From Pisolithus tinctorius (Eukaryota; Basidiomycota; Agaricomycetes; Boletales; Pisolithaceae): DNA of 64,000 bases. A program made the translations under genes and the position numbers. The DNA lies in contig JANFAH010000028.1 in the NCBI GenBank assembly GCA_024663395.1, positions 248,001 to 312,000 on the forward strand, in the 5' to 3' direction. The notes beneath the pieces are model-generated. The model saw nothing but the letters and a program-made list of their open reading frames with translations. It was not told the origin of the DNA and ran no database searches. Shown here in pieces: positions 24,001 to 64,000 of this stretch (position 1 is its first letter; each line of letters begins with the position of its first letter).

Positions 24001-25486
24001 CTGTGGCCTTGGCTAGGCCTGCAAAGGCATGATGAGCTTGTTTGAGGCAGTAGAGGCCCTTCTGCATCAGAATTTCAGCTACTTTCTTTTTCTGAGCATC
24101 AAAGATTTGACAACACTTGTCACAGAATAATGCCACATACCCAGTAATGTCAAGTTTGCTGACAGAAACAAGTGTGATTCCCATCTTGGGAGCATAGAGC
24201 ATGTCCTTGAGTTGAATGTGGGTCTTGGTAGTGCTGTTTGGGAGTGAGATTGCAAGATTGCCTTTTCTGATGGCATGAAAGGTGTGGTTGTCAGCAGCAG
24301 TGATAGGTTTGGGTATGATTGGCTTGTAATCTAGGAATTTGCTGCAGTAGGAGGACATATGACATGAAGTGCCAGAGTCGAACAGGATGGTCTCTTCTGC
24401 AGAATTTAGGTTTTTGCCTGCAAGAAGAACATGGTCATAGCTGTTTGTGTATGTGTCTTCTTCATCATTAATGATGTCCTGGGGGTTCAGAATTTCTTGC
24501 TCTGCAATTTCTGTAAGCCAGTCATCGTCCTGTGGGTGTGCTAGCCAAACTCTGTTGGGTTCCAAGTCAGCACTGGTCTGCACAGTCAAGCTGGCTGATG
24601 CACTGGCCACAGTGGCCACTTTTCCAGTGCCTTTCTCCTTCTTTTTCCCTTTCCCCTTGTTCTGGAACCACTTGGGTGCTTGTCCAGCTTTTCCACCACC
24701 CTCTTCCCAGCATTGGTCTCTGCTGTGACCTTTCTTTCCACAATTTTTGCAAGTGGACTTCTTTCCATCCTTCACTGCATAAGCTGCATCTTCAGAATTT
24801 CCAGAGATTCTGGAATTGCCTCTCTTAGTCCACATTTGGCACCTGTCATATTCATTGGAAATTACTTTGATGATGAAGTCTGGAGATAGGTCCTTTTGCA
24901 TGACTAGGGCCAAAGACATCATAGCTGCAAGGTTGGAGTTGTATGAAGTGGGAAGTGAGCTGAGAATGATAGCTGTGAAGTTGTCATCTGTGATTGACTG
25001 TCCAAGTGCAGCAAGTTGTTCATGCAGTGCACACATCTTGTTGAAGTGAGTGCAGACATCACCTTTTTCCACACAGCGGGATTCTTGGAGTTTTCTCTGC
25101 AGATCAATCATGATGACGTGAGAGCAGTTTTGGAAAAGATTGGTGAGGACACCCCACACACTCTTCACAGTCTCTTCTTTCAGGACTCAAAGGAACAGAG
25201 ATTCTGGGAGTGACACAGCAATCACTTGCTTGACATATCTGTTGTCCTTAGCCCATTGCTGAAGTTTTTCTGGGTATTTGTTAACAAGTTGTTGCTCTGC
25301 AGCTGTGGGCTTCCAGGAGGAGTCTTTCCCTGCTGAAGGGTCCTCTGGTTTTGCATCCAAGCCAGTCAGGTGTCCGATCAGCCCTTTTGAGCTGATGGCC
25401 CATTCAACCCAAGCCTTGTAATACAGCCAGTTGCTTCCATCTGCATTTAGGGTTGGGACTTGTAAGGAATGATTGTCTTTTGCCAT
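21089..25486 (-). pseudogene. Copia gag-pol polyprotein, inactivated
   Basis: From ATG 25486: gag N-terminus ('GSNWLYYKAWVEWA'), CCHC knuckle 'CKNCGKKGHSRDQC' (near 24760), aspartic protease 'ILFDSGTSCHMS' (near 24380), GAG-pre-integrase region ('IHIRLSHIAPKAI'), and integrase ('HTDLWGP' near 23780; 'TPEHNRVAEWLNRTLVEH' near 23450). The reverse transcriptase lies at 21617-22264 and RNase H near 21400-21580 ('YTDADGAS', 'TLSTAEAEYVTATHAAKEG'). The RT catalytic box, normally YVDD, reads HVNN (near 22045-22056). Frames break at several points, and near 21240 a CGA-type Arg codon is TGA. The stop of pol (21089-21091) overlaps the polypurine tract. It cannot be autonomous. Confidence 0.92.
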
Positions 25487-43874: not shown

Positions 43875-45810
43875 CTACACATCGCTAGCATCAATATCCA
43901 TCGAAGTTGGGATATACTTCAAGCTCATGCTCTGTTGTTTCAACTTAGCATGCTCCAAAAGCCTCTCATACACTGCTATCTGCCTCACAGCATAACAGCT
44001 GGCACCAAGTGCATCGCATTCCGAGTGGCAGGTGCACCATTGGATGGCTCGATAATTGAAGTAATTGATTGTCCATTGAAATTCAGCCATCAGCAACTGT
44101 TCCTCTTCCGACCAATGGTCTCACACTGCTTTGGCTTGAAGCCAATGAGTCTGGTAAACTTTGTGTACAGTCAACATTGATCTATACATACATGGATGAA
44201 ACACATACATTCCAACATCCAAGTGATAGATTCCATATCCGTCGGAACATCAATGGACCAAAACCATGGCAAATGGCTGACCCGGTGCGCATGTGCATTC
44301 TGAGTTATGGTGGCTGTGGTCACGGTGAGATCCAATGTCCCCAATTGCTGGTAATGGGTAAGGGTCTCGGCACTCACACCCAGAGTGACCATTGCCTTTT
44401 GGCATTGCTTGTATGTTGTGGCTTGCTTCCGAACTGCTCTGTTAATTGTATGGATTGCGTCCCATGCACATGTTTTCATACTATAGCTTTTGGCATGTCG
44501 CACAACATTCCGTAAGACCACAGCCTTGTCCACCAATGCAAGCTGAAGCCCATTTAGTGCATCATTCGCTTGACCGATCTGGAGCCTCAGCTCCATATCA
44601 TGGAGATGGTGTGAAGTACGGGTTTACCCTCAGGTGACTGGGCTTCAAGACCGGGTGACAGGGGCCGAGTCCAAGTGGCCAGAATCAAGGCCGAGAGACA
44701 GGGGCCAAGTCTGGTTGGACTGGAGTTGAGGCCAGAGGTCAGGGGCTAAGTCTGGAGGACTGGACTTAAGGCCGGGAGCGCGGGAACAAGGCCGGGACCG
44801 TGGGAAACCGACCGGTGTTGGAGTGCGCACAGGGGGAAGCCGGTCTGGGGTTGGATCTACCTCCCTTGGTCTCAGCTTATGTGCTGTACCCTTATGCAAG
44901 CCGGGGAGAGGTCTGGGACAGGGGCTGGGGATAGCTTAAGGCTCGGCCTTAGCTATGGAGTAGCCTCAAGGGGTAACACAGAATTTAGGGTAATACTTAG
45001 TTGATATTCTGACTGAGGGTGCTACAAAGTATGTACAGGGGTTAAATACATGAGGCCGGTCCAGGATAACGAACATAGAGCCGGACTTGTTAATAAGCTA
45101 TTAGCAAGAAGATTAGCAAGAGAGTGGATAGCCACAGTGGCTATGCAGAGGCTAATAGCCAAAGTCCGGGTGACTGGCATACTGGGGTCAGACACAGGAT
45201 TTGTACAGTAAGCAAAAGTCAGATGAATGGGCTAGACTAAATATAGTACAAACAAAGGGAAACAGACCGGAGTTATGTCCGGGTGACCCGGACATAGACC
45301 TAGGAGGACCGGGGTGGAGCAGCGCAAGGCCGGGAGGCCGAAGTGGACCGGAGATAGGGGTAAAACACCGGACTTGAGTTATGCAGGCCGGAGTTGAGTT
45401 ATCTAGGGCTGGGATTGGGTTTTCCAGGCTGGACCAGGACCGGAGTTGACCGGAGTTAGGGGCTAGGGGTCCAGACTGGGCTGAGTCCGAGTCCGAGAGT
45501 CACGGATATGACAGACGGTCTGAATTGCAGGAATGGAAAGCAGCCATTCCAACATTTGATGGAAGCAGCAATGTGGCTATCCCTCCAAGGTCAGTGGTAT
45601 TGGCCGTGAGTGTTTTGTCAGAGCCATCGTTCAGGTCTTCAGCATCCGATAGACATCTGTCAGACATGCATCGGCCATCCCACAGTTCATTGCCTTCTGC
45701 ATTGATTGGATTCCAATCACCTCCCACATCTTGCTGTAGACTGATGTCACATGATTCAGTCACTTGTAGTCCTAAAAGTGGGTCATCTGACATGTACATT
45801 TCGTCCTGAA
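43875..45810 (-). pseudogene. KDZ-type transposase C-terminal fragment split by an LTR
   Basis: The 5' part (45514-45799) reads 'GGIATLLLPSNVGMAAFHSC'. After the LTR insertion (44610-45513) it resumes with 'MELRLQIGQANDALNGLQLA', 'KTCAWDAIHTINRAVRK' and 'HLPWFWSIDV' (44171-44609). After a frame break or intron it continues with 'EFQWTINYFNYRAIQW' and 'YAVRQIAVYERLLEHAK' (43878-44096). I recall this order from the C-terminal region of proteins with KDZ domains and CxC clusters. The catalytic core is absent here; the 5' side gives way to the 45-bp minisatellite. Confidence 0.6.
44610..45513 (-). mobile_element. Solo LTR of the CCGG-rich family, third locus
   Basis: 904 bp from TGTGAAGTACGG to GGATATGACA. 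Flanks are GATGG (44605-44609) and GACGG (45514-45518), a 5-bp target duplication with one C/T difference. Several CCGG sites of the younger copies are CTGG or CCAG here, so it is an older insertion. Confidence 0.92.
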
Positions 45811-47108
45811 ACTGGGACTAACCGACATCGGCCGGTGGTCCCTAGGGTTGGGTAGGCCGGATTGTGAAGGTGGGGTCGGCCTATGTCACAGGATGATGGA
45901 TCAACTTCCCTGGAAGTGGGGTCGGCTGACATGACTATAGGATGGATTGATGACCTGGAAGTGAGGTCGGCTGATGCAGCTATGGGATGAATTAGTGTCC
46001 TGGAAGTGGGGTCGGCCGACACAGCTATCGGATGAATTAGTGTCCTAGAAGTGGGGTCGGCTGACACAGCTATGAGATAGATTAGTGTCCTAGAAGTGGG
46101 GTTGGCTGACGCAGCTATGGGATGAATTAGTGTCCTAGAAGTGGGGTCAGCCAATGCAGCTATGAGATAGATTAGTGTCCTAGAAGTGGGGTTGGCTGAC
46201 ACAGCTATGGGATAGGTTAGTGTCCTGGAAGTGGGGTTGGCCAACACAGCTATGGGATAGATTAGTGTCCTAGAAGTGGGGTTGGCCAACACAGCTATGA
46301 GATAGATTAGTGTCCTAGAAGTGGGGTCAGCTGACGCAGCTATGGGATAGGTTAGTGTCCTGGAAGTGGGGTCAGCCGTCACAGCTATGGGATGAATTAG
46401 TGTCCTGGAAGTGGGGTCAGCCGACACAGCTATGTGATGAATTAGTGACCTGGAAGTGGGGTTGGCCGACACAGCTATGGGATAGATTAGTGTCCTAGAA
46501 GTGGGGTCGGCCGACGCAGCTATGGGATAGGTTAGTGTCCTGGAAGTGGGGTCGGCCAACACAGCTATGAGATAGATTAGTGTCCTAGAAGTGGGGTCAG
46601 CTGACACAGCTATGGGATAGATTAGTGACCTAGAAGTGGGGTCAGCCGACCCAGCTATGTGATGAATTAGTGACCTAGAAGTGGGGTCAGCCAACACAGC
46701 TATGGGATAGATTGGTGACCTGGAAGTGGGGTTGGCCAACACAGCTATGGGATGAATTAGTGACCTGGAAGTGGGGTCAGCTGACACAGCTATGGGATAG
46801 GTTAGTGACCTGGAAGTGGGGTTGGCCAAACCAGCTATGGGATAGATTAGTGTCCTAGAGGTGAGGTCAGCCAGTGCAGCTATGTGATAGATTAGTGTCC
46901 TAGAAGTGAGGTCAGCTGACACAGCTATGGGATGAATTAGTGACCTGGAAGTGGGGCCAGCTGACATGGCTGGGGGAAGGGATGATGTCCTGGCAGTGGG
47001 GTCAGCTGATGTGGCTGGGGGGAATGAACCATGACCTGGAGTTATAGTTGGGCAGACACTTTGCAAGAAAGACCAATATCTTGCTAGTGGGTTAGTGGGG
47101 CTGGCCAA
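45783..47108 (-). other. 441-codon ORF over the 45-bp minisatellite
   Basis: An uninterrupted minus-strand ORF translating about 24 units of 15 residues with consensus ADPTSRTLIYPIAVS. Variation is concentrated at a few positions (S/T, Y/H, V/A, D/N). No signal peptide or other domain is visible. The absence of stops over 24 units could reflect selection or simply homogenisation of a stop-free unit, so coding status is open. Confidence 0.4.
45880..47030. repeat. 45-bp minisatellite, about 24 units
   Basis: Unit of the type 'attagtgtcctagaagtggg' + 'gtcrgcygacacagctatgg' + 'gatag'. Units differ mostly by G/A and C/T transitions and keep exact 45-bp spacing. Confidence 0.93.
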
Positions 47109-47407: not shown

Positions 47408-48995
47408 TTACAAAGATTCCAACAGCCAGGATGATGTTTGCCCCTTTCCCTGTGTCAGTTTGGTAGCCCCTTTAGACATGCAGATAGTATAGGTTTGGGG
47501 AGGCTGAGATGTGCCTTGTGTGTCCTTCCCACAGCCAGGATTCTTGCACTCATAGGAATAAGTCTGCCCTGAACAACCAGCTTCCCACTTCTGAATGCTA
47601 TAACACTGAGGGCACCAGGCAGGCAATTGTTGTCCCCAAGGCCTGATGAACTTGTCAGTCCAGACAAATTTCTCCACCACTACCTTCTCCTGCCACAACA
47701 TCAGGATGATGTTGGAGTGCCTACCCAACATACCACAGTCATTCAGGGCATACCTGACTGCACTTTGGACATGGAAGCCTTGAACAAGGGTGGAGTCAAG
47801 GACACTCATGAGGAAGGGAATGGTGGTGACTAGTTGAAGTCTCTCAGCATCAAAAAGCAACATGGACCTTGGCTTGAAACTGATATGGTGTCAGCCATAA
47901 CCACCAACATTGAAAGAAAACCTACTGTTGCACAGCTGCCTTCAGTCCTTGGAAGCTCTGCTCCTTCCTTACAGTAGAACCACATACAAAGAAGATGAGG
48001 TCTCCACCCTTGACAATGTTGGAGAAGGGTAACAGAAGGCCTTGCAGAAACTGCAACTGGTCAGATGGGAGTGACAGTCAAACAATGGTGACTTACCTCA
48101 AAGACCTCTGTGGCTATTGGAACCTTATTCTCCATTCCAGAGAACAGATCCCCCCTGTCTTCATCAGTATGGGTAGTAAGGAAAATGACTACCTTAGCAA
48201 AGGTAGTCAGACTTGAAGCTAGCTTTGATGCTGCAGTGTCATAGGCAGCTCTGGACTCCTCAGTGGCAAAGTTGAAGGGCAGTTGTGAGAAGTGGTAGGT
48301 GTCTTGTCTGAAATATCCCTGCAACATGGTGTGAAGGATATGCACAGGGGCATGGCCAAGCTCTAGAGACTCAAGGTGGAGGTGGATAATGGCAGTAGAG
48401 TTACCAGCCACTTCAGAGGTGGTGGCATGCTCAAACCCCCCAATGACCACAAGAGGGTGTTTCAGGACTGGCTTGCCTGACAAGTAGAAGCCCTGTACTT
48501 GGAGTTAGAAGTGATTGGGGAGGCAATATGCACTTACAAAATAGGGCTGAGGACTTTCAAATCTTGTCATTTTCCAATGACAGGCAACACACCTGAAGTT
48601 CATCCAGAGTTTGAGTCAATGGAATTAATTCATAAAAGGGAGGTTAACACACCTGAAGGTCACAGGAAGCTGGGTGACCTCTGCAAGGCAATCCTCAGGT
48701 ACTACAACACACTTGTTACACACTACCCTTCTGCATCCTGCCTGATCACAAGGCCACAATGTCCCTCCATCCCTGCACATCACACAGAACTGCATAGAAT
48801 GTTAGAAAGATGGATGGAATATAAAAAGAGACTTGCCAAGTTCCTCATCCTTCTCTTCTTGGCAACAGGGGCCTTCCTAGCATGGGCCTTGCTTGACTTG
48901 GCAGCATGTTTTTCCCTAGCTTTCAGACCAGCAAGAGATACCCTGGGAGCTCTACCCCCAGTGGTCTTCTTAGCTGTCTGCTTGGTCTTCACCAT
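47408..48995 (-). CDS. Histone H3 tail mimic with PHD-like finger (449 aa)
   Basis: Six exons (48995-48837, 48789-48653, 48592-48538, 48492-48097, 48056-47926, 47879-47408) join exactly in frame to 449 residues and a TAA stop. Introns are 40-60 nt; the first is GC-AG, the others GT-AG. After Met1 the start, VKTKQTAKKTTGGRAPRVSLA, carries 14 of the first 21 residues of histone H3, with Lys at H3 positions 4 and 9 kept and no gap; a Lys/Ala-rich basic part runs to about residue 50. Cysteines at 55, 58, 67, 72, 77, 80, 100 and 103 ('CRDGGTLWPCD' core) fit a cross-brace PHD/ADD-like finger with Cys in place of the usual His. The middle has 'AIIHLHLESLELG' and 'TTHTDEDRGDLFSG'. A C-terminal zinc-ribbon-like set follows (C382, C385, C404, C409). 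I recall related unnamed mushroom proteins but no known function. A chromatin-linked nuclear role is inferred. Confidence 0.85.
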
Positions 48996-49280: not shown

Positions 49281-49605
49281 CAACAACATACCTTATTGGA
49301 TGAGACACAGCAAGGGAGATGCAGTGTGGCAGGAGGGAGATATGAATTGATAGCCTACTAGTGTGTTTTGTGAGTGGTACAGGGATGCCAGGAACTGGGA
49401 CAACATACCTTTTGTAGGACAAGACACAGCAAGGGGGTGTTCTGTGAGTGGTAGAGGGATGCCACGACCTGGGATGACATACCTTTTTTTTTTGATAAAG
49501 CATGGTGAGGGGGTGTTGTGTGAGTTGTAGAGGGACGCCACAAAGCTGGGACGACATACCTTTTTTTTTGGATGAGCATAGCGAGGGGGTGTTCTGTGAG
49601 TGGTC
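49281..49605. repeat. About 75-bp tandem repeat, three to four units
   Basis: Units ending in 'acatacctt' plus T runs (sites near 49286, 49403, 49478 and 49554), with 'gcgagggggtgttctgtgag' and 'gtagagggatgcca' in each. The T run has expanded in the last two units. Confidence 0.8.
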
Positions 49606-50200
49606 ACTTCAGGTAACCACTTTTCATAAGCATTTAGGCTGAATAGTTTCTCCAAACCATCCAGCCTAATAGCCTCCCAGACCAAGGTCTGCCCAGGGAC
49701 ATCTGGTCATGTCCCAGGGCTATGCAGATTTTTAGGCCCTGGGACAGATGGGATTTCCCACATAGCCATCCATTCAAATGCAATTATTTGGGATGTCCCA
49801 AGACTGCCTTGGGTGACTGGGGTCCCTACTCCTGAAAGTGCAGCTTATATTAGCATTGAAATAGCTGCAGAAATCCTAGCCCCCTTGCTCCTCTGACAGA
49901 TTTAATCCACAAAGTATCCTTTGACCTATACATCCCCTCCCATCCCACCATGCATAGTAGTATACAATAGTACTTTTCATGTACATCTTTGCAATGCGAT
50001 TCTGCTGTATTGGGACATCTCACTAGTTGCCATGGAGATGACCCACCTGGGCCTCCACATTTGCCTTGAAAATTGCAATAATAAATTCAATCAATTTGTG
50101 TCTATACCTCATGCAATTTGTACTGTATGAAGGAAGAAGTGAATGGTTTTTGAACACTTGTGAGACAAGCCAATATCTCAAAGTCCCCCACATAGAACAT
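49606..50200. other. Unique sequence before the large array
   Basis: No gene. Degenerate GGGATGTCCC-like motifs near 49700-49800 may be decayed array units. Confidence 0.4.
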
Positions 50201-50229
50201 GGTGTTGGTCACCTTTGCAACACCATCTG

Positions 50230-50860
50230 CAGAGGGCAGAATGTCCCAGATGAGCCTCTGAGGTTGTCATGGGGCATTGTGCTGGTCTGCAAAGGTAGCT
50301 TAGGAGGATGTGCCATCATAGCCCTCTGAGGCTGGGATGGGACATCCCACTGACTTTCATAAGGGGACTTGGGATGTCCCACAGCAGCCTCCAAGGCTAC
50401 CTTGGGACATCCCACCCTCCCCTTTGCCAACCAGTGGGATGTCCCACAACAGCCTCTAAGGCTACATTGGGACATCCCACTGTTCCCTCTGCCAACCAGT
50501 GGGATGTCCCGCAACAGCCTTTAAGGCTACATTGGGACATCCCACTGTTCCCTCTGCCAAGCAGTGGGATGTCCCACAACAGCCTCTAAGGCTATGTTGG
50601 GATGTCCCACCCTCCCCTTTGCCAAGCAGTGGGATGTCCCACAACAGCCTCCAAGCCTACATTGGGACATCCCACCCTCCCCACTGCCAACCAGTGGGAT
50701 GTCCCCCAACAGCCTCTAAGCCTACATTGGGACATCCCACCCTCCCCTTTGCCAACCAGTGGGATGTCCCACAACAGCCTCTAAGGCTATATTGGGACAT
50801 CCCACCCTCCCCTCTGGCAACCAGAGGGATGTCCCAACACAGCCTCTAAGGTGTTGAAGT
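50230..50860. repeat. Hairpin minisatellite array, block 1
   Basis: About nine units of 64-65 bp. Each holds GGGACATCCC and its reverse complement GGGATGTCCC about 25 nt apart, joined by C-rich 'accctcccctttgccaacca' sequence, then 'acaacagcctctaaggctac'. The inverted pair can form a 10-bp stem in every unit. Confidence 0.93.
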
Positions 50861-50904
50861 AGTAATCTGCACTAATCCTACAAGCACCATAGAGAATCCA
50901 ATGC

Positions 50905-50990
50905 AAGGTAGCTCCATGGTCAGAGCAGCTGCTTGACACTGAGAGGGTCCTGGCTCAATGCCAGCTCTGGTCACATTTTCATCAGGTTAT
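50905..50990 (+). mobile_element. tRNA-derived SINE-like head, copy 1
   Basis: A-box-like TAGCTCCATGG at 50909 and B-box-like GGCTCAATGCC at 50952, 43 nt apart as in tRNA genes. It is followed by the shared tail 'ctctggtcacattttcatca'. Confidence 0.65.
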
Positions 50991-51299
50991 GAGCTGCAGC
51001 TGGAACCCATGCATGCTCAGTACAATGGGTCATGCAGCATCCTTAGTAAGTCCAGATCATGTGAGTTACATGGACACAAGGTGGCTGATAGTAAGGCCTC
51101 CTGGAAACACAGCAGTAAATCCTGATCCATCACATGACACAAGGTCAAAAGGCAATCAGACCATTTGCATGACCCTAGGGGGTGTGCACTGTTTTTACAC
51201 TCCAAAAGTGGCCAGATGAAGGGACCACATTGGAGATGGTGCATTCTGTGCATTAACTTCATGGAGATATGTTCCCACAGTGCTAGTCTAAGCCCCCAA

Positions 51300-51405
51300 G
51301 CTACTGACACTAGTACCCAGACCATATGGCTCAGTGGTTGCAGCACCTGGTAAACACCTAGGAGGTCACTGGTTCAATCTTAGGACTGGTCACATTTTCC
51401 TCATG
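51300..51405 (+). mobile_element. tRNA-derived SINE-like head, copy 2
   Basis: Perfect A box TGGCTCAGTGG (51327) and B box GGTTCAATCTT (51371), 44 nt apart. The tail 'actggtcacattttcctcat' runs straight into the first 64-bp array unit at 51404. Confidence 0.75.
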
Positions 51406-51925
51406 AGGCTACTTTGGGACATCCCTCCCCTCCTCTGGCAAGCAGTGGGATGTCCCACAACAGCCACTAAAGCTACATTGGGACATCCCTCCCCCCCTCT
51501 GGCAAGTATTGGGATGTCCCACAATAGCCTCTAAGGCTACATTGGGACATCCCTCCCCCCCTCTGGCAAGCAGTGGGATGTCCCATGACAGCCTCTAAAG
51601 CTACATTGGGACATCCCTCCCCCCCTCTGGCAAGCAGTGGGATGTCCCACAACAGCCTCTAAGGCTACATTGGGACATCCCTCCCCCCCTCTGGCAAGTA
51701 GTGGGATGTCCCTTGACAGCCTCTAAAGCTACATTGGGACATCCCTCCCCCTCTCTGGCAAGCAGTGGGATGTCCCATGACAGCCTCTAAAGCTACATTG
51801 GGACATCCCTCCCCCCCCTCTGGCAAGCAGTGGGATGTCCCACAACAGCCTCTAAGGCTACATTGGGACATCCCCCCCCCCTCTGGCAACCAGTGGGATG
51901 TCCCACAGCAGCCTCTGAGCAAGTG
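51404..51925. repeat. Hairpin minisatellite array, block 2
   Basis: Eight units of the same family with C-tract 'ctcccccctctggcaagca' as the spacer. It starts directly at the tail of SINE-like copy 2. Confidence 0.93.
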
Positions 51926-51984
51926 GGGAATGGTGCATTGCTCTTCACATAGTCTTGTTCCCATGTCACTGGTTTACCCCCATG

Positions 51985-52125
51985 CTACTGATATTAGTAC
52001 CTAGACAATGTATATTTGCTCAACTGTTTAGGGCACTGGTTATCACCTAAGAGGTTGCTTCAATCCCAGCTCTGGTCACATTTCCATCATAAGGCTACAT
52101 TGGGACATCCCACTTCCCCCTCTGG
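51985..52125 (+). mobile_element. tRNA-derived SINE-like head, copy 3
   Basis: A-box-like TTGCTCAACTG (52016) and B box GCTTCAATCCC (52057), 41 nt apart. The tail 'ctctggtcacatttccatca' leads into one unit of the 64-bp repeat. The upstream sequence 'gctactgatattagtacc' matches that before copy 2. Confidence 0.65.
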
Positions 52126-52394
52126 CAGCTGGGGGTAGTGTTGCTGTGGCTCAGGGAGCTGTCCTAAGCCAAGGTCCATACCACATCTATATTATTGAGT
52201 ATTAAAATAATTATTGTGGATTTGGTATGTGGCAACTCAAGGCTACATTTGGTAATAGTTGTCATAGTGACTAAGCTGCTTGTTGTTGAGCAGGTCAGCC
52301 TTTGGAGCGGAGCCACAGCAACACTAGCTGAGGCTATGTCCCAGACCACCCTCTTGGGTTATATTGGGTCATCCCACCCCACTCTCCAGCAGAC
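52126..52394. other. Unique spacer within the array region
   Basis: No gene supported. Confidence 0.4.
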
Positions 52395-52475
52395 AGTCCA
52401 GTGGTTGTAGCACCTGGTGAACATCTAGGAGGTCACTGGTTCAATCTTAGGACTGGTCACATTTTCCTCATAAGG
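52395..52475 (+). mobile_element. tRNA-derived SINE-like head, copy 4 (5' truncated)
   Basis: Retains 'cagtggttgtagcacctggt', the same B box as copy 2 and the tail 'actggtcacattttcctcat', which again opens into the array. The A box is only partly kept. Confidence 0.65.
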
Positions 52476-53935
52476 CTACTTTGGGACATCCCTCCCCCCC
52501 TCTGGCAAGTAGTGGGATGTCCCACAATAGCCTCTAAGGCTACATTGGGACATCCCTCCCCCCCTCTGGCAAGCAGTGGGATGTCCCATGACAGCCTCTA
52601 AAGCTACATTGGGACATCCCTCCCCCCCCTCTGGCAAGCAGTGGGATGTCCCACAACAGCCTCTAAGGCTACATTGGGACATCCCTCCCCCCCCTCTGGC
52701 AAGCAGTGGGATGTCCCACAACAGCCTCTAAGGCTACATTGGGATGTCCCACCCTCCCCTTAGGCAAGCAGTGGGATGTCCCACAACAGCCTCTAAGGCT
52801 AAATTGGGACATCCCACCCTCCCCTTTGCCAACCAGTGGGATGTCCCACAACAGCCTGTAAGGCTACATTGGGACATCCCTCCCCCCTTCTGGCAAGCAG
52901 TGGGATGTCCCACAACAGCCTCTAAGGCTACATTGGGATGTCCCTCCCCCCCCTCTGGCAAGTAGTGGGATGTCCCACAACAGCCTCTAAGGCTACATTG
53001 GGACATCCCTCCCCCCCTCTGGCAAGCAGTGGGATGTCCCATGACAGCCTCTAAAGCTACATTGGGACATCCCTCCCCCTCTCTGGCAAGCAGTGGGATG
53101 TCCCATGACAGCCTCTAAAGCTACATTGGGACATCCCTCCCCCCCCTCTGGCAAGCAGTGGGATGTCCCACAACAGCCTCTAAGGCTACATTGGGACATC
53201 CCTCCCCCCCTCTGGCAAGCAGTGGGATGTCCCTTGACAGCCTCTAAAGCTACATTGGGACATCCCTTCCCCCCCTCTGGCAAGCAGTGGGATGTCCCAC
53301 AACAGCCTCTAAGGCTACATTGGGATGTCCCACCCTCCCCTTAGGCAAGCAGTGGGATGTCCCACAACAGCCTCTAAGGCTAAATTGGGACATCCCACCC
53401 TCCCCTTTGCCAACCAGTGGGATGTCCCACAACAGCCTGTAAGGCTACATTGGGACATCCCTCCCCCCTTCTGGCAAGCAGTGGGATGTCCCACAACAGC
53501 CTCTAAGGCTACATTGGGATGTCCCTCCCCCCCCTCTGGCAAGTAGTGGGATGTCCCACAACAGCCTCTAAGGCTACATTGGGACATCCCTCCCCCCCTC
53601 TGGCAAGCAGTGGGATGTCCCTTGACAGCCTCTAAAGCTACATTGGGACATCCCTCCCCCCCCTCTGGCAAGCAGTGGGATGTCCCACAACAGCCTCTAA
53701 GGCTAAATTGGGACATCCCACCCTCCCCTTTGCCAACCAGTGGGATGTCCCACAACAGCCTCTAAGGCTACATTGGGACATCCCTCCCCCCTTCTGGCAA
53801 GCAGTGGGATGTCCCACAACAGCCTCTAAGGCTACATTGGGATGTCCCACCCTCCCCTTTGGCAAGCAGTGGGATGTCCCACAACAGCCCCTAAGGCTAC
53901 ATTGGGACATCCCACCTACCCCTCTGCCAACCAGC
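52472..53935. repeat. Hairpin minisatellite array, block 3
   Basis: About 23 units of about 64 bp. A higher-order block of 581 bp (nine units) is repeated: 'taggcaagcagtgggatgtc' occurs at 52761 and 53342 and the following units match in order. ORFs on both strands simply translate the repeat and are not genes. Confidence 0.94.
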
Positions 53936-54038
53936 AGGATATTCTACATTTTACCCATGCATATGTCTTGCAAACATGATGCTCAAAAAACATTCTATTT
54001 AAAGACACCAAATAGATTATAATATGTCTCTATCACCC

Positions 54039-57000
54039 TTATCTGTATCGAACTCTTTTACTTGGAGATGATGGTGGATCCATATCCAGTAGGTCATTCT
54101 CCCATTCTTCTCCCCAACAGAATTCTTCCAATGGCATATCACTTTGTTGGTGATATTCATCTGCCAGGGCAAATTCTTCAGCAACACATAGCAACTCATC
54201 ATCCATCACTTCATCCTCATCCTCTTCACCCTCTGACTCCAATCCATCAAACCTCTCCTCATTATCACCATCAATATATATAACATGACCACCCTGCACC
54301 ATGCTGTGCAGTTCTTCATCACTTGCACCCCAGTTCTCATTAGGTGTTCCAGGATAGCCTCTAAGTTGCCTCTTCCACAAGATGCACAGACCTGCTAGTC
54401 TCAAAGCTCTGCAGTCAAGTTCATATGCAAGATCAACATCTGCAATGTGTGTTAGTCATGGTAATGCAATGACACATGTCTCTTACCAGCACTCTGTCTG
54501 GTTTTCTGCACATGACCCCACTCTTCAGAAAACCACTCTGTCAAAGCTCTTCTTTCCTGCAACAGGCGCCTTTCCTCTTCTTCACAACGCCTCAGCTCAA
54601 GGAGTGATCTGATCCCTGAGCGCACTTTTTCATCAGCTAACCATGGGGGTAGTAACCCATCTGAATCATCCCCAAGGCCAATATCCTGCCAAATATCATC
54701 ATCCACATCCAGTTTGAACAAAGAGTCCCTTGGAATCAGGAGTGGGGCTATTGACCCCTGAGGAGCTTTTCCCTTGTGTATGAGGCCTACAATTTGCAGA
54801 CACAAATTATTGTAGCTACTGGCAAGCTTGGCTATTCCTGGTTCTCGTCGCTTCACAGATGCTTCTGTGTGGTTTTGAAGTCTTTGTTCTTCAAGGCAAG
54901 TCAAATACAAGGGTATTCATGAATGATGACCTCTTACCACTGAGAGTCTGCTGATATGAGCGTTCCAGTCTTCCCAACTCAAACTTTCGTTGGCGCAGAC
55001 GATCTCTGATACGTTTCTTGATTGCTAATGCATGCATGCGAAGCTATGGAACATGGTCTCAATTAGATGAAACCATGTAGAAAATACACTGCCACTAACT
55101 TGAAGATAAGCACTCTTTTGGATACTAGCAAGATTTGAATGCCCATTTATGCCTAGGGTTGCCCTCTGGTTCTGCAAAGCTTCTTTAAAACACTTAACCT
55201 TTTGATGACACTCTGCAATTTGGATATTCAAGCTTGTCATGTCAGCAACCCCATGGAGAAGATCTTTCTCCAGCACTTCTAGCTTGGCCTCATAATTTGC
55301 CAATGATTTCTGAGTTGCCATGATTTGCAATATCATATTCTCAGCAGCTTTAGAGCTGTGACCTAATTTGATGGTGAGCAGGAGTCATTATTTATATCAG
55401 CAGCTTACGAGGAGCTGGCTTTGTCTGTGCAGAGACTTGAGCAACCCATTCAGCTTGAAGAGTTGGGATATCAACTCCACATCTCCTTAGGCCTCTGTTT
55501 GCAGCAGCCTTCTTTTCTTGGCAATGATTCCAGCAACGCAAAAGCCACTGGCCCAAACCAGTGAGACTCTTCATGTCCAGGTGGCACACCTGGAAGTCAA
55601 TAACAAAGAGGCGTTGATGATACTGAATAATATGTTAGCTTGAAACAGATGTGGCATACTGCACACATACCCCAGAAACACGAAGAGATGGTATCAGCCC
55701 TTTGATTGAACTCCAAAAACGCTCACATCCCTCTCCATCAGATAGCCCAAATCCTTCACATTTTCGGGGGTGATAGATAAGCTGACATGCCCATTGATGA
55801 CCAAAGGCATGAAATACTGAGATGGCAAAAGAAATACGTGGCAGAAATGACTTGAGAAAACCCCACTTCCTGCAGCTCTGTTCCAGTTGACAACCTATGT
55901 CATATAACAGCCCAATACGAAAATTATCTGGGAGATGGCCAAAAAGAGATTTGATGAGGGCAAGTGCATAATGTTGCCTCTCCCCAGCTGAAGTCATATT
56001 TGCAAGGTAAATGACACGATCATGACGACAGAGTAGGGCCATGACACCAGTATCTGAAAAGAACTGGGTACTTGCCTACACTGCCATCAGACCAATGGAG
56101 TCAGAATAAATGATTAAGACTCACTTTCTGGCGCCTCTCATCAGCTGCAGTAAAGGACTCATTACAACCCTTCAGCACTGACATTGTTATCCTCATTCCC
56201 TCTTCAAACTCATCCTCCCCATCACCAAGATAATTCTTTTTCAAAGCCTGTCCACTCCTCCTTTGGGTTGAAGACTTTGACTTTCGCAACTCATTAACCT
56301 CATGCTCCATAGCACAAATATCTTCTTGTGAAAGAAAGACTGTAGCTGTAGGGTTTACTGGATCATCTGGATGCCCACTTCTGCACTTCTGAGTAAAACA
56401 AGCATCAATGCAAACAATTGCATCAACATCAGAAAAGCTAGAACAAAGGAAATTTTAGCAGTTGACAAAACTATATCCACCAAGTGACATACCCATGTTC
56501 ACTATTATTGTTCTGCCAGCTCTGGCCACCAAAGCATAAAGGACAATGCTGTCGTAGGTATTCTGATGGCCTCATCTTTGAACTGAAGACATCATTGTCT
56601 GAGGAACTTGGCAATGGGATTGCAGAGGGGATGTTTGATGGTGGACTAGCAGATTCTTGCAGTTGTTGTTGGACATATTCATCAAGGGATGTTTCCAGAA
56701 TACAATACCAGTGATATGCATTACTGAACCTCCAGCGTATACCCTCCTGCAAGTATCATCAGCAATGATCCATGACTGAGAAGAACAACCAAAGTATGCA
56801 TTAATAATATAGCAACATCACCACAAACAATACCAACAAACATCCTACCCTATCAATATAACACTACAGCAGTCCCAAGAAACAGAACATGTCACACATG
56901 CATGCACTTATAACCATGAAATAGTCATGCATCAGATTAAGATATACTACCTACATAGCAGAGTCATCTGTACTACAGTCACTATGGCAGTAATGTATGT

Positions 57001-57907
57001 TTTACGAAGTGGAAAAAATGGGGTAATGATACAAAACATGACAATTCCATACCTTTGTGTCCACCTTATAACCCATAGCTGCAAGGTATGCCTCAAGGGA
57101 CTCACACCATGCTGAAGTGTTTGGAGGTATGCACATGAAGAGTTGTCGGACAAAGCTGAGAAGCTGTAGGCTAACAGCAAGTGTTGGCCCCAGTGGGGCA
57201 CAGGGGAAGTAGCCCATCCAAAGGAGTTGGAGGGCTGCAGGTGCACAAGGACAGACAGCCAGATCAACTGATTGCAGAGCTGCCATGAATGCATCTAAGC
57301 AGAGGAAAATGACGAAGAACACAGAAATCTCACCATTGAAATCAATGCAAATGACTCTCAGCTTTCGAGTCTGGTGACAACCACACGTCGGCAGTTCGTA
57401 GTCAACAGGATTCCGGAAGTGGTTGGATAGTCGTCGATATGCAAGGTACGGCTGAAGGAGGGAAGGGATGACAGTGTGCGACCACCGCTGCCACTGCTTC
57501 ATTTTTTTTCGGGCATTCCTAGATGGTGACAGGAGCGGGTCTTCGCTAATATGTAGCCCATCGGTTAAGCGGTCGAAAGCGGCATCATGGGAGAGGTCAC
57601 ATTCACTACCCGCAGAAGGCTCTAACGGGCGAGCAGCACTTGAAGCAGAGCGGCGTCGGATGTGGGGGTCGGAGGAATCACTGGGGTGTTGTGTGAAAGC
57701 GCGACGGCCAGGTAAGGTGAGCAAGCGCTCAACAGGAAGGTAAAGCCCCGCAGTTCCGGGAACACGGCGCGAAGGTTCAGCAGTCTGATGGTCAACAAGG
57801 ACCGCGAGATCATCCGCACGGAGCGAGTCGGGAATCTGGTTTGTCGGGGCGGTAACTCGTACAGAGGGACCACGCCTAGTAAGCTGTTTCGGTCGACGAA
57901 AAGACAT
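54039..57907 (-). CDS. KDZ transposase with CxC1 cysteine cluster
   Basis: Kyakuja-Dileera-Zisupton family DNA transposase, apparently with all parts. The N-terminus from ATG 57907 has a CxC pair at residues 175 and 177 ('ELPTCGCHQTRKLRVICIDF'), then 'PCAPAALQLLWMGYFPCAPL' and 'PPNTSAWCESLEAYLAAMGY' (the CxC1-type cluster). After an intron of about 300 nt come 'RWRFSNAYHWYCILE' and 'CPLCFGGQSW' (56500-56747), then 'AIVCIDACFTQKC' (near 56420). The core follows: 'RIGLLYDIGCQLEQSC', 'AISVFHAFGHQWACQLIYHP' and 'GFGLSDGEGCERFWSSIKG' (55700-55930). A long coiled-coil-prone part comes next ('YEAKLEVLEKDLLHG', 'LRRCEEEERRLLQERRALTE'), and the tail is acidic, ending at 54039. Roughly nine exons with short introns are needed; those checked join in frame. 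The active-site acidic residues were not assigned one by one. Confidence 0.85.
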
Positions 57908-58228
57908 CTATGAAATCGGTCAGACGCATAAACTGTCTAGGCGAGTTAGTGGTAGACGACGATCCTGCAACACCAAGTTACAGGACTGTGACCAGGACAC
58001 CGAATCCTGGTTGCTGGAAGGCAACCCCAAGATGCCACCAGCACGTCTCCAATAGTTAGCCTCCAGCGTAGAAAAGCGAACTGACCTTTGCACACGACTA
58101 GTGAGGGCGATGGGGAAAGAGACGGAGCAAGTGTGCAACGAACAAAATGAGATTGCAATTGCGGCGTGCTATGAATATCGTTCGGGAACGTACAGAGTAA
58201 AAATGGTATTGGGGAATGATGAAGGAGG

Positions 58229-60468
58229 TTACTGACTATTTGAACCGTAACCCCGCGGTGCAGTTGGAATAAGGCGGGGAAGAAGGGGCGGACGACCAAA
58301 AGTATCAAAGAACGACTGTACATAAAATATAGCCAACTTCTTTTCCATTGCCCAGACACGCGACGATGACGCTAATGGCATAATTGGCTCCGCCAAGTCC
58401 GAGGGGCATCCTGGCCATACAGCAAGTAACGCCCGGAGCTTCTCTACGTACTCCCGTTTCGATTGAAAGTCGGACGAGCCGAGGCCTTGATTTTGCTGAG
58501 GGAAAGGCTCAGCACACATGGTGAGTTCCGAATCACCAGGGAAAATCTGCGTAGAGTTCAGAAACAGCGCATTCCTGGTGAGGTAAAATTGTACGTACCT
58601 GCCGGACGTGATCGAGCCGCTCTGAATCCCGATTCGACCACAAGCTAGGCATCATCGCACGGTCAAGAGCGACCAACTCGAACTGGAAGTTGTGTTCATA
58701 TAAATCCCATAAAATCTTGCTTTTCGTCATCTGATCGATGGTAGCGAGGTCTGCGAGGGAAATTGAAATATCCCGGAATTGTACATGGCTAGGTATGTCG
58801 TGTTGGAGGCTGACGAGCTCGGGACCAAAGAGGGCGGCAGATTCACGTAGTCGGTCGCCGGAAAATGTGGATGAAATCTGCTTGGGAATTGTGTTCAGGA
58901 AATCCCGCCAGGACCGAGGGATAACAGGAGACGCATCCGAGGCAGAAAGACGAGTGATCCAACCCGCTCGAGAGACTAGCCAATTCCTCAGGTACCTCTG
59001 CTGGCGATCGGAGGACTCGCCCCTCACAAACAGACTCGGGCTGGGAAAGAAGTAAGCTACCTTTGGCGCGTTGGGACTAACCCTTTTTGCATCCTTATTC
59101 ACGTCCTTCAGGGCAGCGTGCCATGCAGACATAGCAGGGGGAATAGCTGGATCGCCGAGGTCTTCCCACAGTTCGGGATTCAGAACGACCGACGGCTTGG
59201 CTCCTTTCGAGCCCGCAGGGGGATCTGAGCAAAATGTTAAACACACTGAGACAAAATGAATAGGATACGTACATGGCTGATTACGTTGTCGAGCCCTGCC
59301 CGTCCTAACAGCTCCCGTACTTGAACTTGCACCGCTGGAACTTGCAGCATTGGAAGCCGTGGGACCCGTGCTTGTGGGAGTCGAGGCCACACCACTGCTG
59401 GTGCGTGGCGGTTCCGGCCAGGGAGCCGCAAATTGCTCGAGCCCAATCGCCGGGCCTTGTCGAGTGTGCCTGTGGCGCGATTCACCAGGGTGGTACCAGG
59501 CGCTGTGCCATTTCAGCATCTGCCCGACCTCAAAAACCTCAGGATCCGTGACTATGTCATGAGGGCGCGTAATCTCGACGGTCTTCGACACTTGCATGTC
59601 TGGGGGTACACGATCGGGTTTCCAGACCATCCAGACAGGCACGCGTATTTCGAAAAGGTGCTGGCAAATGTCGGGGTCTGTCGTGAATGCCCCGATCCAG
59701 CGGTCAAATGAATCGACGAAAGTGCCCGTAGCAGGGTCAAGGTCTGTGTCCAGATATTCTAGCATGCCAAAGACGTCTAGGAGGAGGCGTTGACAAAAAG
59801 CGACCAATATGACTGTGTCTCGAAACGTAAATGGGAGTTGCTAGAGAAAATTTTAATTAACGAAATCTGAACCAGAAAAAAATCATACCTTCAGACGCAG
59901 GAGACATCGCCGACATGACCCCAGCCACGAGTCGGGTCTCAGAGGACCTTCGTAGTGGGGGTGCTTCTTTAGCCAACCTTGCAAACGTTCGTCTAGTCGA
60001 TTATAAACGGTCTCCATTGACTTCCACTTGTCGGCATGAATCCTGCCAACTTTGAAGGCAGACCCTCTTTCCAGCACAAAATCTTCCGCTGACTGGGTAA
60101 CGTTCCACCACAGCCACTTCCACGTTGGGTCGTCTCCATAGGCCACTTTCCGAGGGACACACGGACTCCATGTGTAGCGTTCTGCGAACAACTGTGGCCA
60201 TTGAAAACAGTCTATATGGCCGAACCGTCCATCGTGTAGGGGCGTGATTGTTTCTCCATCGAAGATGAAGGGTTGGGGAATATAGTCAGCGTTCGGCGAT
60301 GTGATCCAGTGGTCGTCACACTTTGCTAGGACACGCGCATCGAATGCACCCCATCTGCCTGAAAATAATGATAATCAATTTGAGCTGAGTTAGGGACAGC
60401 GAGAACGCACCGTCGCCAGGGCGGTTGCGTAATGATAATTCATAAGGGCGAATGCTAGCTACATTCAT
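58229..60468 (-). CDS. Intact 679-residue basidiomycete protein of unknown function
   Basis: Five exons (60468-60411, 60358-59889, 59840-59273, 59224-58599, 58546-58229) join exactly in frame to 679 residues ending TAA; all four introns are GT-AG and 47-52 nt. It starts MNVASIRPYELSLRNRPGD. Features: 'RWGAFDARVLAKCDDHWITS', 'VERDRVP'-like basic segments, 'SFDRWIGAFTTDPDICQHLF' with 'VPVWMVWKPDRVPPD' (near residue 215-245), a Ser/Thr/Ala-rich linker before an Arg-rich run, then a helical C-terminal part. No catalytic motif, signal peptide or membrane helix is seen. I recall many paralogues in mushroom genomes, often near transposons, without known function. The KDZ gene starts 320 bp downstream on the same strand. 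A three-hairpin motif lies 123 bp upstream of its ATG. Confidence 0.8.
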
Positions 60469-60590
60469 CCTGGAAACAAAAGAAGTCAGTCAGTACTTAC
60501 TTAAATTGACGGAGATGACGACGAGGGGAGAAAAAAATGAATCATGCAGCGTTAAGGCCGGTGTAACTGAAATGAAACGAGAATGTTGCC

Positions 60591-60671
60591 CTCAATAGGC
60601 CCCAAGCCTATTGAGAACTCGCGAGGCACCAAACCCCAGAGCACTTGGCAGACAAACGCTCCGAACGTTTG
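60591..60671 (-). promoter_or_regulatory. Triple-hairpin element, copy 1
   Basis: Reading on the minus strand. H1 (60671-60653): CAAACGT-TCGGA-GCGTTTG. H2 near 60625-60640: GGGGT-TTGGT-GCCTC. H3 (60615-60591): CTCAATAGGC-TTGGG-GCCTATTGAG. It lies 123 bp upstream of the 679-residue gene on the same strand. Whether it acts as RNA leader, DNA element or mobile repeat is not known. Confidence 0.8.
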
Positions 60672-60864
60672 GCTCCGAGTACAGCATAAGTTGACCGGAT
60701 GTTTGAAAGAAAGGTATGAATGAAAGAGAATAAAAACTTACTTTCAAAAAACGTCTGCTTGACAAAGAGGTGACGATGATTAGTGTATTGACTCTCCACG
60801 CGTATAGACTATGTTAACGTCTGAATTTCGATGAAGAAACGCCCCAGAAACCGCGAGGATATCT

Positions 60865-60942
60865 CTTGATAGGCCCCAAGCCTATCAAGAACTTGCGGGC
60901 ACCAAACCCCCGAGACCTGACGGACGAACGCTCCAAACGTTC
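60865..60942 (-). promoter_or_regulatory. Triple-hairpin element, copy 2
   Basis: Reading on the minus strand. H1 (60942-60926): GAACGT-TTGGA-GCGTTC. H2 (60912-60896): CGGG...TTGGT...CCCG type. H3 (60889-60865): CTTGATAGGC-TTGGG-GCCTATCAAG. It is preceded on its own strand by GTAAGTTTCTCTTT...TTTTCCAG, an intron-like stretch; similar GTAAGTTTTTATTC sequence occurs near copy 1, so the two form a tandem pair about 270 bp apart. Confidence 0.8.
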
Positions 60943-61537
60943 ATGGAAAGAGCGACCGGGCCATCTGGAAAATTAAGATGGAAAAGATAAAGAGAAACTT
61001 ACCTTGCACTGAATTGGTTTATACGGAGGGGCGTCGGCGACTCGAAGTAGTAGGTAGCACTTACTAGTAGTAGTGAGAAATATTACGGGTACTGCTGTGC
61101 ACGTGACCTGCACCACAAATGAATGCGACGCCTGACTTACAGCGTGCTCGAGGAAGACCTTGAGTCTAGGCTCTAAATTGTCAAATAATCGGGTGATTAG
61201 ATATAAGTTTTGTGTTCCGTATTTCATTCCTCAATGTTCCGCACTGCCTATTGTAATATTCACGGGAGACGCGTTCGTGCATTACAGTAATGACATATTG
61301 ATAAGCTACTTATAGCAAGTCCTAGTTACAAGTACTAGTGCGCCATTGCTACTTTGTTAATAGATTTGGCCACTTTTACCGATGTGACTAAAGTTTCGAT
61401 GAATGACAGAATCTTAACATGTCATTTCACAATTGCACAATTGTTACATCATCACAGCCGAAACAAACATTCGCACCACCCGCAGCTATTACTTAGCGAC
61501 ACTCTCGTCTTCTGTACGCTGTCCGCATGGTATTGGG
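60943..61537. other. Divergent intergenic region
   Basis: Between the minus-strand and plus-strand hairpin copies. No gene was supported in either direction. Confidence 0.45.
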
Positions 61538-61616
61538 GGAACGCTCGGTGCGTTCCTCTACCATATGTCAGGGGCTTGGTGCCCTTGACAGCCTTGAAGG
61601 CTTGGAGCCTTCAAGG
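61538..61616 (+). promoter_or_regulatory. Triple-hairpin element, copy 3
   Basis: H1 (61538-61556): GGAACGC-TCGGT-GCGTTCC. H2 (61566-61590): TGTCAGGGGC-TTGGT-GCCCTTGACA (one G.T pair). H3 (61592-61616): CCTTGAAGGC-TTGGA-GCCTTCAAGG. All stems are 7-10 bp with 5-nt loops. Similarity to copy 4 continues for about 70 bp downstream ('tcttggtgtc'). Confidence 0.85.
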
Positions 61617-62322
61617 GCGGTCTTGGTGTCCAGTGGATCCGACGATCAATCGCACGACAACAGTCAAGACTGACCCTCATCTTTCAGCGACGTTAACGAA
61701 GGTTTTGTGGGTCAGTGCTTTCGACTTAAGTTATGCATCATTACGCTTCGCAGTCTACTGACCCATTTACCAGCGCATACTACGTGTACTAGGTCCATCG
61801 TTCTCCCCACCTCCAACTGCACTCCGTCGTTCCGCCTGGCCAGTATATGCCTTCAATAGCGACGCCCTTGTCTCCCCACTCATCTACCCTTGGTACAGAT
61901 TCAGTGATCGATCGCGTAGACGATAGTGCAGTTCTCCCCTCGCCTTTTAGTCCTGAAGATTCTAGTTAGCAACACATCCGTTCATATCTATCCCTGCCGA
62001 TCAAATACGTGGCGTGTTCCTCTACTACGAATTTTCTCCAGGTTGCCTCATGATCAACCATGCGAAGTTCTAACGCGGGTACGTGGTTAGCTTTTCAGTG
62101 TATCTTATCCATCGATTTCTGCTACTTCCTCCAGGGTATTACGAAGAGTTACGTCACATCTAAGTGCACGATTCGTCGTGGTCGAACTTCCGGTTTTCCC
62201 GCAATGGCTTCCGACAAATGGGGAAAGGGAACGAGGTAGCCTTCTGCTGGAGATCCGCCATCATACTTACAATTCTCTGCGCATTCACTCTCCAGCCTTT
62301 CCTTCCCATTCCCTGACCCACC
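61617..62322. other. Leader region before the small gene
   Basis: No ORF with support. C/T-rich sequence lies directly before the ATG at 62323 ('cctttccttcccattccctg'). It may be a 5' UTR with introns. Confidence 0.4.
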
Positions 62323-62866
62323 ATGTCCGAAATACCTTCGCCCAGTACTGGATTGGATATAAGCTCTAGCAACCTCAGTACGTGTTTTTCTGACTAACTC
62401 CTGACGACTAACGCATTTTGGCACAGGCGCTCTAATTACTCTGATCGGAAACCTCGAATTGAATGCAGCAGACGCTGAAACGCTAGCAAGCGCTTTGTTA
62501 CTAAGATCTCGCGCTGAAGGTGAGTATGTTCTTAAGTGACATTTCTGGACTGATCATATTGCAGCCTTCATAGGGTCATCCGGCTCGCAACCCACATACC
62601 CCACGGCGGCATTATGCCCGTCGAGTCCTGGGGTTTCAGGATTGTTGTCCCGCGAAGAGTGTACACCTGCCACCTTATCCCCCACGATCCCCATTTACGC
62701 GGAATTTCCCGCACCGCCAGTATCGATACATCTAACGCCACCTAACTCGACTGATCCCTCCACTATTCTTGTCCGCGGCCACCCAGATCGTGAAGCAAGG
62801 GTTCCATATCTAGCGGATGACTGCGTGCATACTCCCACCGGAATTTTTTTTACCATATCCATGTAA
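62323..62866 (+). CDS. Small three-exon protein of unknown function (149 aa)
   Basis: Exons 62323-62377, 62427-62519 and 62565-62866 join in frame to 149 residues and TAA. Introns are GTACGT...GCACAG (49 nt) and GTGAGT...TTGCAG (45 nt). It begins MSEIPSPSTGLDISSSN. A short helical part follows ('LIGNLELNAADAETLASAL'), then a Pro/Ser/Thr-rich low-complexity tail. No domain, signal peptide or membrane helix is visible. It is flanked by directly repeated hairpin copies 3 and 4, so it may be cargo of a repeated unit. Confidence 0.6.
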
Positions 62867-63042
62867 AGACTAACAGCTATTGTATTATCTGTTGGCAAGT
62901 ATTTCTCGCGGCGGTCTCCAATTAATTACTACGAAGTATAAATCCTCAGGCCGTGTATTGCGTATGGCAGCCTGACTGTGAGGCAAGTCGCAACTCGGCA
63001 CTTTCCATCCTTCGTAAATTTCTACCATTCAAGCTCTACCAC
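62867..63042. other. Short intergenic gap
   Basis: AT-rich, no gene seen. Confidence 0.4.
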
Positions 63043-63130
63043 TTAGCAGCGGAACGCTTGGAGCGTCTCTCTGCTAAATGTCATGGGCTTGGTGCCCTTG
63101 ACAGCCCCTGAAGGCTTGGAGCCTTCAAGG
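63043..63130 (+). promoter_or_regulatory. Triple-hairpin element, copy 4
   Basis: H1: inner ACGC-TTGGA-GCGT (63054-63066) inside an outer TTAGCAG/CTGCTAA stem (63043-63049 and 63071-63077). H2 (63079-63103): TGTCATGGGC-TTGGT-GCCCTTGACA with one mismatch. H3 (63106-63130): CCCTGAAGGC-TTGGA-GCCTTCAAGG with one mismatch. It lies about 640 bp upstream of the gene starting at 63766. Confidence 0.8.
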
Positions 63131-63765
63131 GTGGTCTTGGTGTCGATCCGGTGATCAATTGCACGGACGACAATGACCCTCGTCGCTCAGTACCGGAGAT
63201 TCGTTTCAGCAACAACTTCGCCTAAAGGTCGTCGTACCTCCGACGTTCGGTCTACATTATTTGCTCGATTTGGCTATCGATCGCGTGAAAGGGACTGCGT
63301 CTATCGGACTCCGTCGACCCTGCTCTCGTCAGTGACCGCCCTTAGGGGCTTGAACGATTCATTTTCCGTCTAGTAAGCCCATTCCTTTCTCTATTACTGG
63401 ATACTGATGAACTCTTGTGGTTTTTCAGTCCTGAGGAAACCCACTTTCTGGGTCGCGCAGACGGAATACCGCCGTTCTGGATTTCGATTGGGATTCCACC
63501 CGTATGTTTCCATTTTGATAGGTGTGTCATCCTCGCTACGCATTACAACCACTTCTTTCCTGCGTGCTTTTCCTTCGTCCCCCTTACGTCGTGTCCTCTT
63601 TTCGTGGTTTCATATGTCCTTGCTGATGCTATATCCAGAACTTTGCACGCTGAGACAACATGTTCTAGATGGATTTTTTTTCCCATGTGGTTCGTCTTGG
63701 CTTGACGTGCTCTGACCTTAAATATTCACCTTGCCTCCCCCCATTTCTCAACACCCCCATACAAC
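63131..63765. other. Leader region before the last gene
   Basis: No supported ORF. 'cttaaatattcac' about 45 bp and a C-rich run about 30 bp before the ATG at 63766 could be core promoter sequence. Confidence 0.4.
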
Positions 63766-64000
63766 CATGCCCCGCTCTGCTGATATCCCGGAGCCTTCGA
63801 GGGACTCCGTTGCCGACTTGAACACTCGCGTTCTTCGCAACCGAAGGATTCCGTCCTCACAAAATGCCCCGGTTTCCAAACGAGTAAAAAAAGGTGGTGC
63901 TGTTGTCTCTAACGATGGAGTGCAACACTCAGAGGTACGTCTTGTATATTTCTCATCCATTACTCTAACGTCGTTTTCCGCTCACGGCAATCTACTCCGA
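63766..64000 (+). CDS. First exon of a gene cut by the window end
   Basis: ATG 63766 opens MPRSADIPEPSRDSVADLNT, followed by a basic Arg/Lys part ('RVLRNRRIPSSQN', 'SKRVKKGG'). The exon ends at GAG 63934 before a GTACGT donor. The rest lies outside the window, so no family can be named. The upstream sequence is C/T-rich, typical of an expressed fungal gene. Confidence 0.5.

Follow-up and report, generated by a model that had tools for sequence, protein, structure and literature searches.

A transposon-borne protein of Pisolithus tinctorius with a selected histone H3-like tail and a PHD-type finger

The window analysed here is a stretch of 64,000 nucleotides from contig JANFAH010000028.1 (C28) of Pisolithus tinctorius. 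A gene on its minus strand encodes a protein that opens with a likeness of the histone H3 tail and continues into a PHD-type finger. The gene resides in a transposon, and the likeness of the tail to H3 is under selection. We are nearly certain of both points.

By reading of the open frames and splice sites, the gene at 47408–48995 (minus strand) consists of six exons, which join in frame into a protein of 447 amino acids with no internal stop. The introns measure 47, 60, 45, 46, and 46 bp, and the donor of intron 1 is GC. An earlier note on this DNA had described an intact six-exon gene with a product of 449 residues. The joins and the stop-free frame stand. The longer product would arise with the alternative acceptor at 48057 (instead of 48051) in the list of acceptors, which would add two residues. 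The parts of the gene are as follows.

48930–48995, minus strand: H3-like tail, codons 1–22 (MVKTKQTAKKTTGGRAPRVSLA), placed by the counts of identity to H3 and the best PDB match
48837–48995, minus strand: exon 1, the tail plus a basic, unconserved linker (residues 1–53)
48653–48789, minus strand: exon 2, start of the eight-cysteine PHD-type finger
48538–48592, minus strand: exon 3, last cysteine pair of the finger
48097–48492, minus strand: exon 4, a domain whose fold is unknown and whose invariant histidine lies within H-[ST]-[DE]-x-x-RGDLF
47926–48050, minus strand: exon 5, invariant CG-x-x-V motif
47408–47879, minus strand: exon 6, remainder of the unknown domain, then a C terminus rich in cysteine (Zn-ribbon-like by eye)

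Residues 2–22 align to canonical H3 without gaps and share 14 of 21 positions with it, the same count as in the earlier note. Compared with the H3 of the host itself, 15 of 21 positions are identical. A phmmer search of PDB sequences with residues 1–117 gave histone H3 as the top match (E = 2.9e-4), and the best 60 of the 136 matches are all H3, H3 peptides, H3 variants, or Cse4. When the stretch from the tail to the start of the finger was shuffled 200,000 times, the maximum was 12 of 21 identities to host H3 versus the 15 observed. A chance resemblance to H3 is ruled out by the PDB search and the shuffles. The protein copies a histone tail more closely than chance allows, one mark of a histone mimic. 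No histone fold follows this tail; the histone matches in the PDB span only the first 30–48 residues.

The H3 genes of the host on C39 and C41 (L039, L042) read MARTKQTARKTTGG, with T10 and T11 present. The threonine at position 10 of the window protein, previously described as a replacement of S10, differs from canonical H3 but is identical to the host's own H3. It is no true replacement, since the host genes themselves carry T10. The position of H3 R2 is occupied by lysine in the window's family. Exon 1 of the H3 gene on C41 appears by eye to end after Q19, near the end of the likeness, and it is possible that a transposon captured the first exon of a host H3 gene. Another locus (L038, C2:4630070) has an H3-like start (MPRTKQTARKTTGGTAPRKQV), followed by sequence other than the H3 core with two similar stretches (QNIEHLIAYNQIP... 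and QNVELLIAYDQIP...). It is an H3 fragment or a fusion.

The gene had been taken for a single host gene in a repeat desert, which was wrong. It is cargo of a high-copy KDZ/TET transposon. At least 40 places in the host genome (92.5 Mb), the window included, show 95–99% identity over exon 6, and these close copies throughout the genome rule out a single domesticated gene. The same search gave one longer match at 90% (on C22) and more distant relatives. Eighteen copies of the window's family, designated A, were fetched; 11 are intact with identical splice sites and 7 are broken.

The copy on C11 is complete. It is 17,130 bp long, with the 7-bp target duplication TATGATC on both sides and CA..TG ends (CACATG and GGGTCTG). 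It contains a KDZ transposase match (PF18758, E = 1.9e-28) and a Tet_JBP match (PF12851, E = 3.2e-9), the latter scoring 36.7 bits against a cut-off of 34.9. Further open frames are found in this element (L029) at approximately 15.6–16.9 kb of the reversed joined stretch, with no Pfam match over the cut-off. In the window, the following parts of the host element and of a second, nested element were located.

45748–45787, no strand: left end of the Kyakuja-like element (CACATGATTCAGTCACTTG...), sharply bounded in 16 of the 18 family-A copies that were fetched
45909–47003, no strand: 45-bp tandem array in the left end of the element
49363–49604, no strand: tandem repeats of 76 bp that lie upstream of the gene and form the last bases of the element before the nested insertion
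49605–64000 and on to C28:319933, no strand: nested second element of 22,329 bp, which splits the Kyakuja-like element and has the 7-bp duplication GAGTGGT
55671–56072 (C28:303671–304072), minus strand: KDZ transposase match of the nested element

Two of the 16 copies with the sharp boundary have one flank in common, and a seventeenth copy (L025) aligns from the same base. The ends of the nested element are inverted (CACTTCAGGTAACCAC...). Beyond the window, the first element resumes at C28:319934, and more of its sequence lies at C28:321268–322728. A Tet_JBP match is present at C28:323704–323988, past the start of the resumed element. As the 45-bp unit of the array at 45909–47003 is divisible by three, the array contains an open frame of 444 amino acids, probably no gene. 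Within the nested element, 65-bp tandem arrays occupy 50370–53934, and their core resembles the palindrome TGGGATGTCCCA. Elsewhere in the window, open frames at 21617–25186 (minus strand) look by eye like those of a copia-type retrotransposon.

The host genome has at least 150 Tet_JBP matches at E ≤ 0.01, of which at least 149 are over the family cut-off. Among the matches listed, one lies within 8 kb of 20 of the 40 family-A tails (by chance, approximately 0.026 each) and within 15 kb of 23 of the 40. For the listed loci of families B to G2 described below, which are old copies, a listed match is found within 8 kb at 1 of 29.

Iyer et al. are said to have been the first to link KDZ and TET. 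The left end in the window, when inverted, matches the C11 copy's right end at 32 of 40 bases. As far as the published description goes, the TET+ Kyakuja elements of Agaricomycotina likewise combine a KDZ transposase, a TET/JBP gene, a 7-bp target duplication, and CA..TG ends (PMC12730594). The two TET+ Kyakuja families described from Laccaria have these duplications and ends and, unlike the element here, no inverted repeats (Kojima 2025, PMC12730594). We use the provisional label Kyakuja-like because inverted repeats are present. It has been proposed, not proven, that TET in such transposons opposes methylation-based silencing (PMC12730594). The main text of that paper never mentions a PHD, a zinc finger, or a caspase, and its four uses of "histone" are unrelated (PMC12730594).

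A search of the host genome for DNA that could encode TKQTA[RK]K found 58 places; a reversed control found one. Sorting by codons assigned 40 places to the window's family A, 4 to B, 2 to C, 5 to D, 2 to E, and 5 to H3 or H3-like genes; of the H3-like loci, that on C47 and one of the two on C39 were left unfetched. The query's patterns matched none of the viral contigs. The agreement of the D and E tails is partly selected, because these families were found through the tail pattern. To control for this bias, the genome was searched with tail-less D and E proteins, and the starts of the newly found families were read afterwards. These queries yielded three more families with H3-like tails: F (MVRTRSSTKNAKGGSASR), G (MARTRQNAKKTTSGTAPR), and G2 (VRTQQSTKKTTSRIAPR).

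Identities to host H3 (of 21) are 15 in A, 15 in B, 13 in C, 11 in D, 13 in E, 6 in F, 13 in G, and 9 in G2; the tails of F and G2 are worn. The earlier note had named homologues without an H3-like start as a refuting case; in all eight families with a readable start, this start resembles H3, with some reservations. Family C has no ATG at the tail, none was seen before the tail of G2, and no tail was seen in a ninth, broken relative (H, on C6). One copy of G on C7 diverges after residue 13. The tail is broken in several A copies, a single D copy carries Q2, and a family-A copy at C20:657391 (L024), broken elsewhere, has K8 changed to R as in H3.

Neutral evolution of the tail, which had been named as the refuting case, is contradicted by three observations. 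The tails of the eight diverged families are identical at 7–14 of 21 positions in pairwise comparison, against 0–9 of 25 in the adjoining 25-residue linker. Among A, B, and C, codons 2–10 show 0–2 replacement changes per approximately 21 sites against 5–6 synonymous changes per approximately 6 sites, the latter saturated. T3, K8, A15, and R17 are invariant over the eight families despite changing codons. H3 R8 is replaced by K in all eight. Q5, G12, G13, and P16 are mostly kept, and residue 14 varies freely. Five families have K at position 4, F and G have R there, and G2 has Q. Met1 is directly followed by A, V, or P in each of the eight. Such a residue after Met usually permits removal of Met1.

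This pattern bears on two other readings of the tail. The lysine/arginine-rich composition of exon 1 would suit a basic peptide that binds DNA or directs nuclear import and whose likeness to H3 is fortuitous. We consider this very unlikely: the non-basic T3 and A15 (and mostly Q5, G12, G13, and P16) are kept, in contrast to the more basic linker, and shuffles that preserve composition never reach the observed match in A–E and G and rarely do so in F (0.002) and G2 (3e-5). The tail may instead be a substrate or recruiter, on which H3-modifying enzymes of the host (such as H3K4 methyltransferases, LSD1-type demethylases, or acetyltransferases) would act or which they would join; the finger would bring them, and the element would stay open. 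The SNAG domain is an H3-like peptide that recruits LSD1. The retention of T3, A15, and R17 in every family, and of K4 and Q5 in most, agrees with such a role. On the other side, three families have R or Q instead of K4, and residue 14 is variable, which makes a conserved modification of those lysines unlikely there. We regard the substrate/recruiter reading as improbable.

The finger is of the PHD type. Its eight cysteines and a DGG motif are invariant in all five families A–E; in G, the motif is changed to NGA. The spacing is that of a cross-brace with eight metal ligands, the fifth of which is Cys rather than the His of PHD fingers. When a profile of the finger was compared with the PDB, the best matches were SP140 (7.9e-5), ATRX (0.0015), AIRE (0.0021), and PHF21A (0.057), followed by CHD4, NSD-type, and TRIM24 fingers at 0.2–0.4. 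As a single sequence, the window finger found SP140 at E = 0.16 only. Pfam matches on five members were weak, with PHD in two (best 0.0061) and CK_II_beta, another zinc family, in all five (best 0.0027). The description of the finger as PHD/ADD-like therefore holds for the eight-cysteine PHD-type part, whose profile is nearest to H3 readers, and fails for ADD: the GATA-like finger that precedes the PHD-type finger in ADD is absent, residues 1–54 of the window protein being free of cysteine.

The profile relatives of the finger other than AIRE and BHC80 (PHF21A) are also known as H3 readers. In the account that we took as reference, the fingers of AIRE and BHC80 read unmodified H3, with D297 of AIRE and D489 and E488 of BHC80 as the acids that contact K4 (PMC3214078). 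With the K4-contact position taken from that source (PMC3214078), the three residues that precede the first Cys include no D or E in A, B, D, and E. The PHD fingers of AIRE, SP140, and BHC80/PHF21A and the ADD of ATRX are the best profile matches of the window finger, which differs from them in having eight cysteines instead of C4HC3 and in lacking the K4-contact acids and the GATA-like half of ADD.

The presence of the tail and an H3-reader-like finger in one chain, separated by an unconserved linker of approximately 30 residues, would permit a regulation in cis. The finger would bind its own tail as a pseudo-ligand, and H3 tails of chromatin would displace it and free the C-terminal domain. 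As we read the alignment, families A–E have nothing ahead of the first Cys that would correspond to the K4-contact acids of the AIRE/BHC80 type, and the finger of family G has NGA in place of DGG. On these grounds we think that such a switch is unlikely.

Behind the finger, the motifs H-[ST]-[DE]-x-x-RGDLF and CG-x-x-V are kept in all seven aligned families. Nothing convincing matched this domain in Pfam, NCBIfam, or the PDB, and exons 4 and 6 of the window folded singly gave mean pLDDT values of 34.8 and 42.1, too low for use. The layout of the invariant His and Cys is reminiscent of caspase motifs, and the protein could be imagined as a caspase- or CHAT-like protease with the H3-like tail as its pseudo-substrate. 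The Pfam and NCBIfam scans gave no peptidase match, genome searches with CHAT (PF12770) and Peptidase_C14 (PF00656) matched other loci only, and a profile comparison with two CHAT sequences of the host gave a probability of 0.2%, with no match in the PDB. As no profile test supports a protease, we rejected this extremely improbable candidate.

We prefer, tentatively and at somewhat less than even confidence, to see the H3-like protein as an anti-silencing decoy or adaptor, which would occupy H3-reader pockets beside TET. As cargo of a TET-carrying Kyakuja-like KDZ transposon, the gene would serve the element against silencing. We infer that removal of Met1 would expose an H3-like N terminus, [VAP]-[RK]-T-K-Q-T-A-K-K..GG.APR. 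The exposed tail would fill host pockets that read the N terminus of H3, in the fashion of PAF15 and DPPA3 on UHRF1, and its competition with H3 would weaken silencing guided by histones, with TET acting on DNA methylation at the same time. The finger and the C-terminal domains would tether or regulate the protein.

The models for this step, PAF15 and DPPA3, are described as proteins whose V-R-T takes the place of H3 A-R-T on the PHD finger of UHRF1 (PMC7060239, PMC11187062). Mouse DPPA3 competes with H3 and so keeps UHRF1 off chromatin (PMC7060239, PMC11187062). Both resemble the window protein in a short H3-like V-R-T(-K) sequence, which in PAF15 is at a free N terminus (PMC7060239, PMC11187062). 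The likeness in the window protein differs in being longer (GG.APR) and borne by a transposon. PAF15 and DPPA3 are vertebrate host proteins without a reader finger of their own. Influenza NS1, SARS-CoV-2 ORF8, and the SNAG domain are further short copies of histone H3 that engage chromatin proteins. We know of no histone mimic that a transposon encodes together with a PHD-type finger in the same protein, and no transposon-encoded H3-tail mimic was found in the literature on related topics, a scope outside which H3 mimicry combined with fungi or Basidiomycota falls.

In favor of the decoy we count the residence in the transposon, the complete C11 copy with TET and transposase matches, the closeness of family-A tails to Tet_JBP matches, the intact copies, the selected tail, and the kinship of the finger to H3 readers. 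Several observations count against it: the K at R2 in A, K4 as R or Q in F, G, and G2, the worn tails of F and G2, the E value of 0.16 for the finger as a single sequence, the single listed B–G2 locus near a Tet_JBP match, and the A copy with R8. H3 R2 is reported to be important to the PHD fingers of AIRE and UHRF1 (PMC3214078). Three SRA matches and three DNA-methylase matches in the host genome speak for the decoy; the SRA matches are partial, however, and no UHRF1-like gene could be assembled, which speaks against it. A fuller version of the decoy, which we find doubtful, would have the transposon capture exon 1 of a host H3 gene and carry a two-part kit, in which TET oxidises methylcytosine and the free tail draws H3-reading silencers off chromatin, as DPPA3 does with UHRF1. 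The change of R8 to K would then spare the decoy from H3K9 methylation.

Viruses and a few host proteins are already known to mimic histones, and fungal transposons are known to have captured TET. If the decoy reading is true, transposons too would use histone mimicry as a strategy, with an H3-tail mimic carried as cargo beside TET and selected in several families within a single genome. The mimic would also offer a natural decoy for finding the H3 readers that silence repeats in mushrooms.
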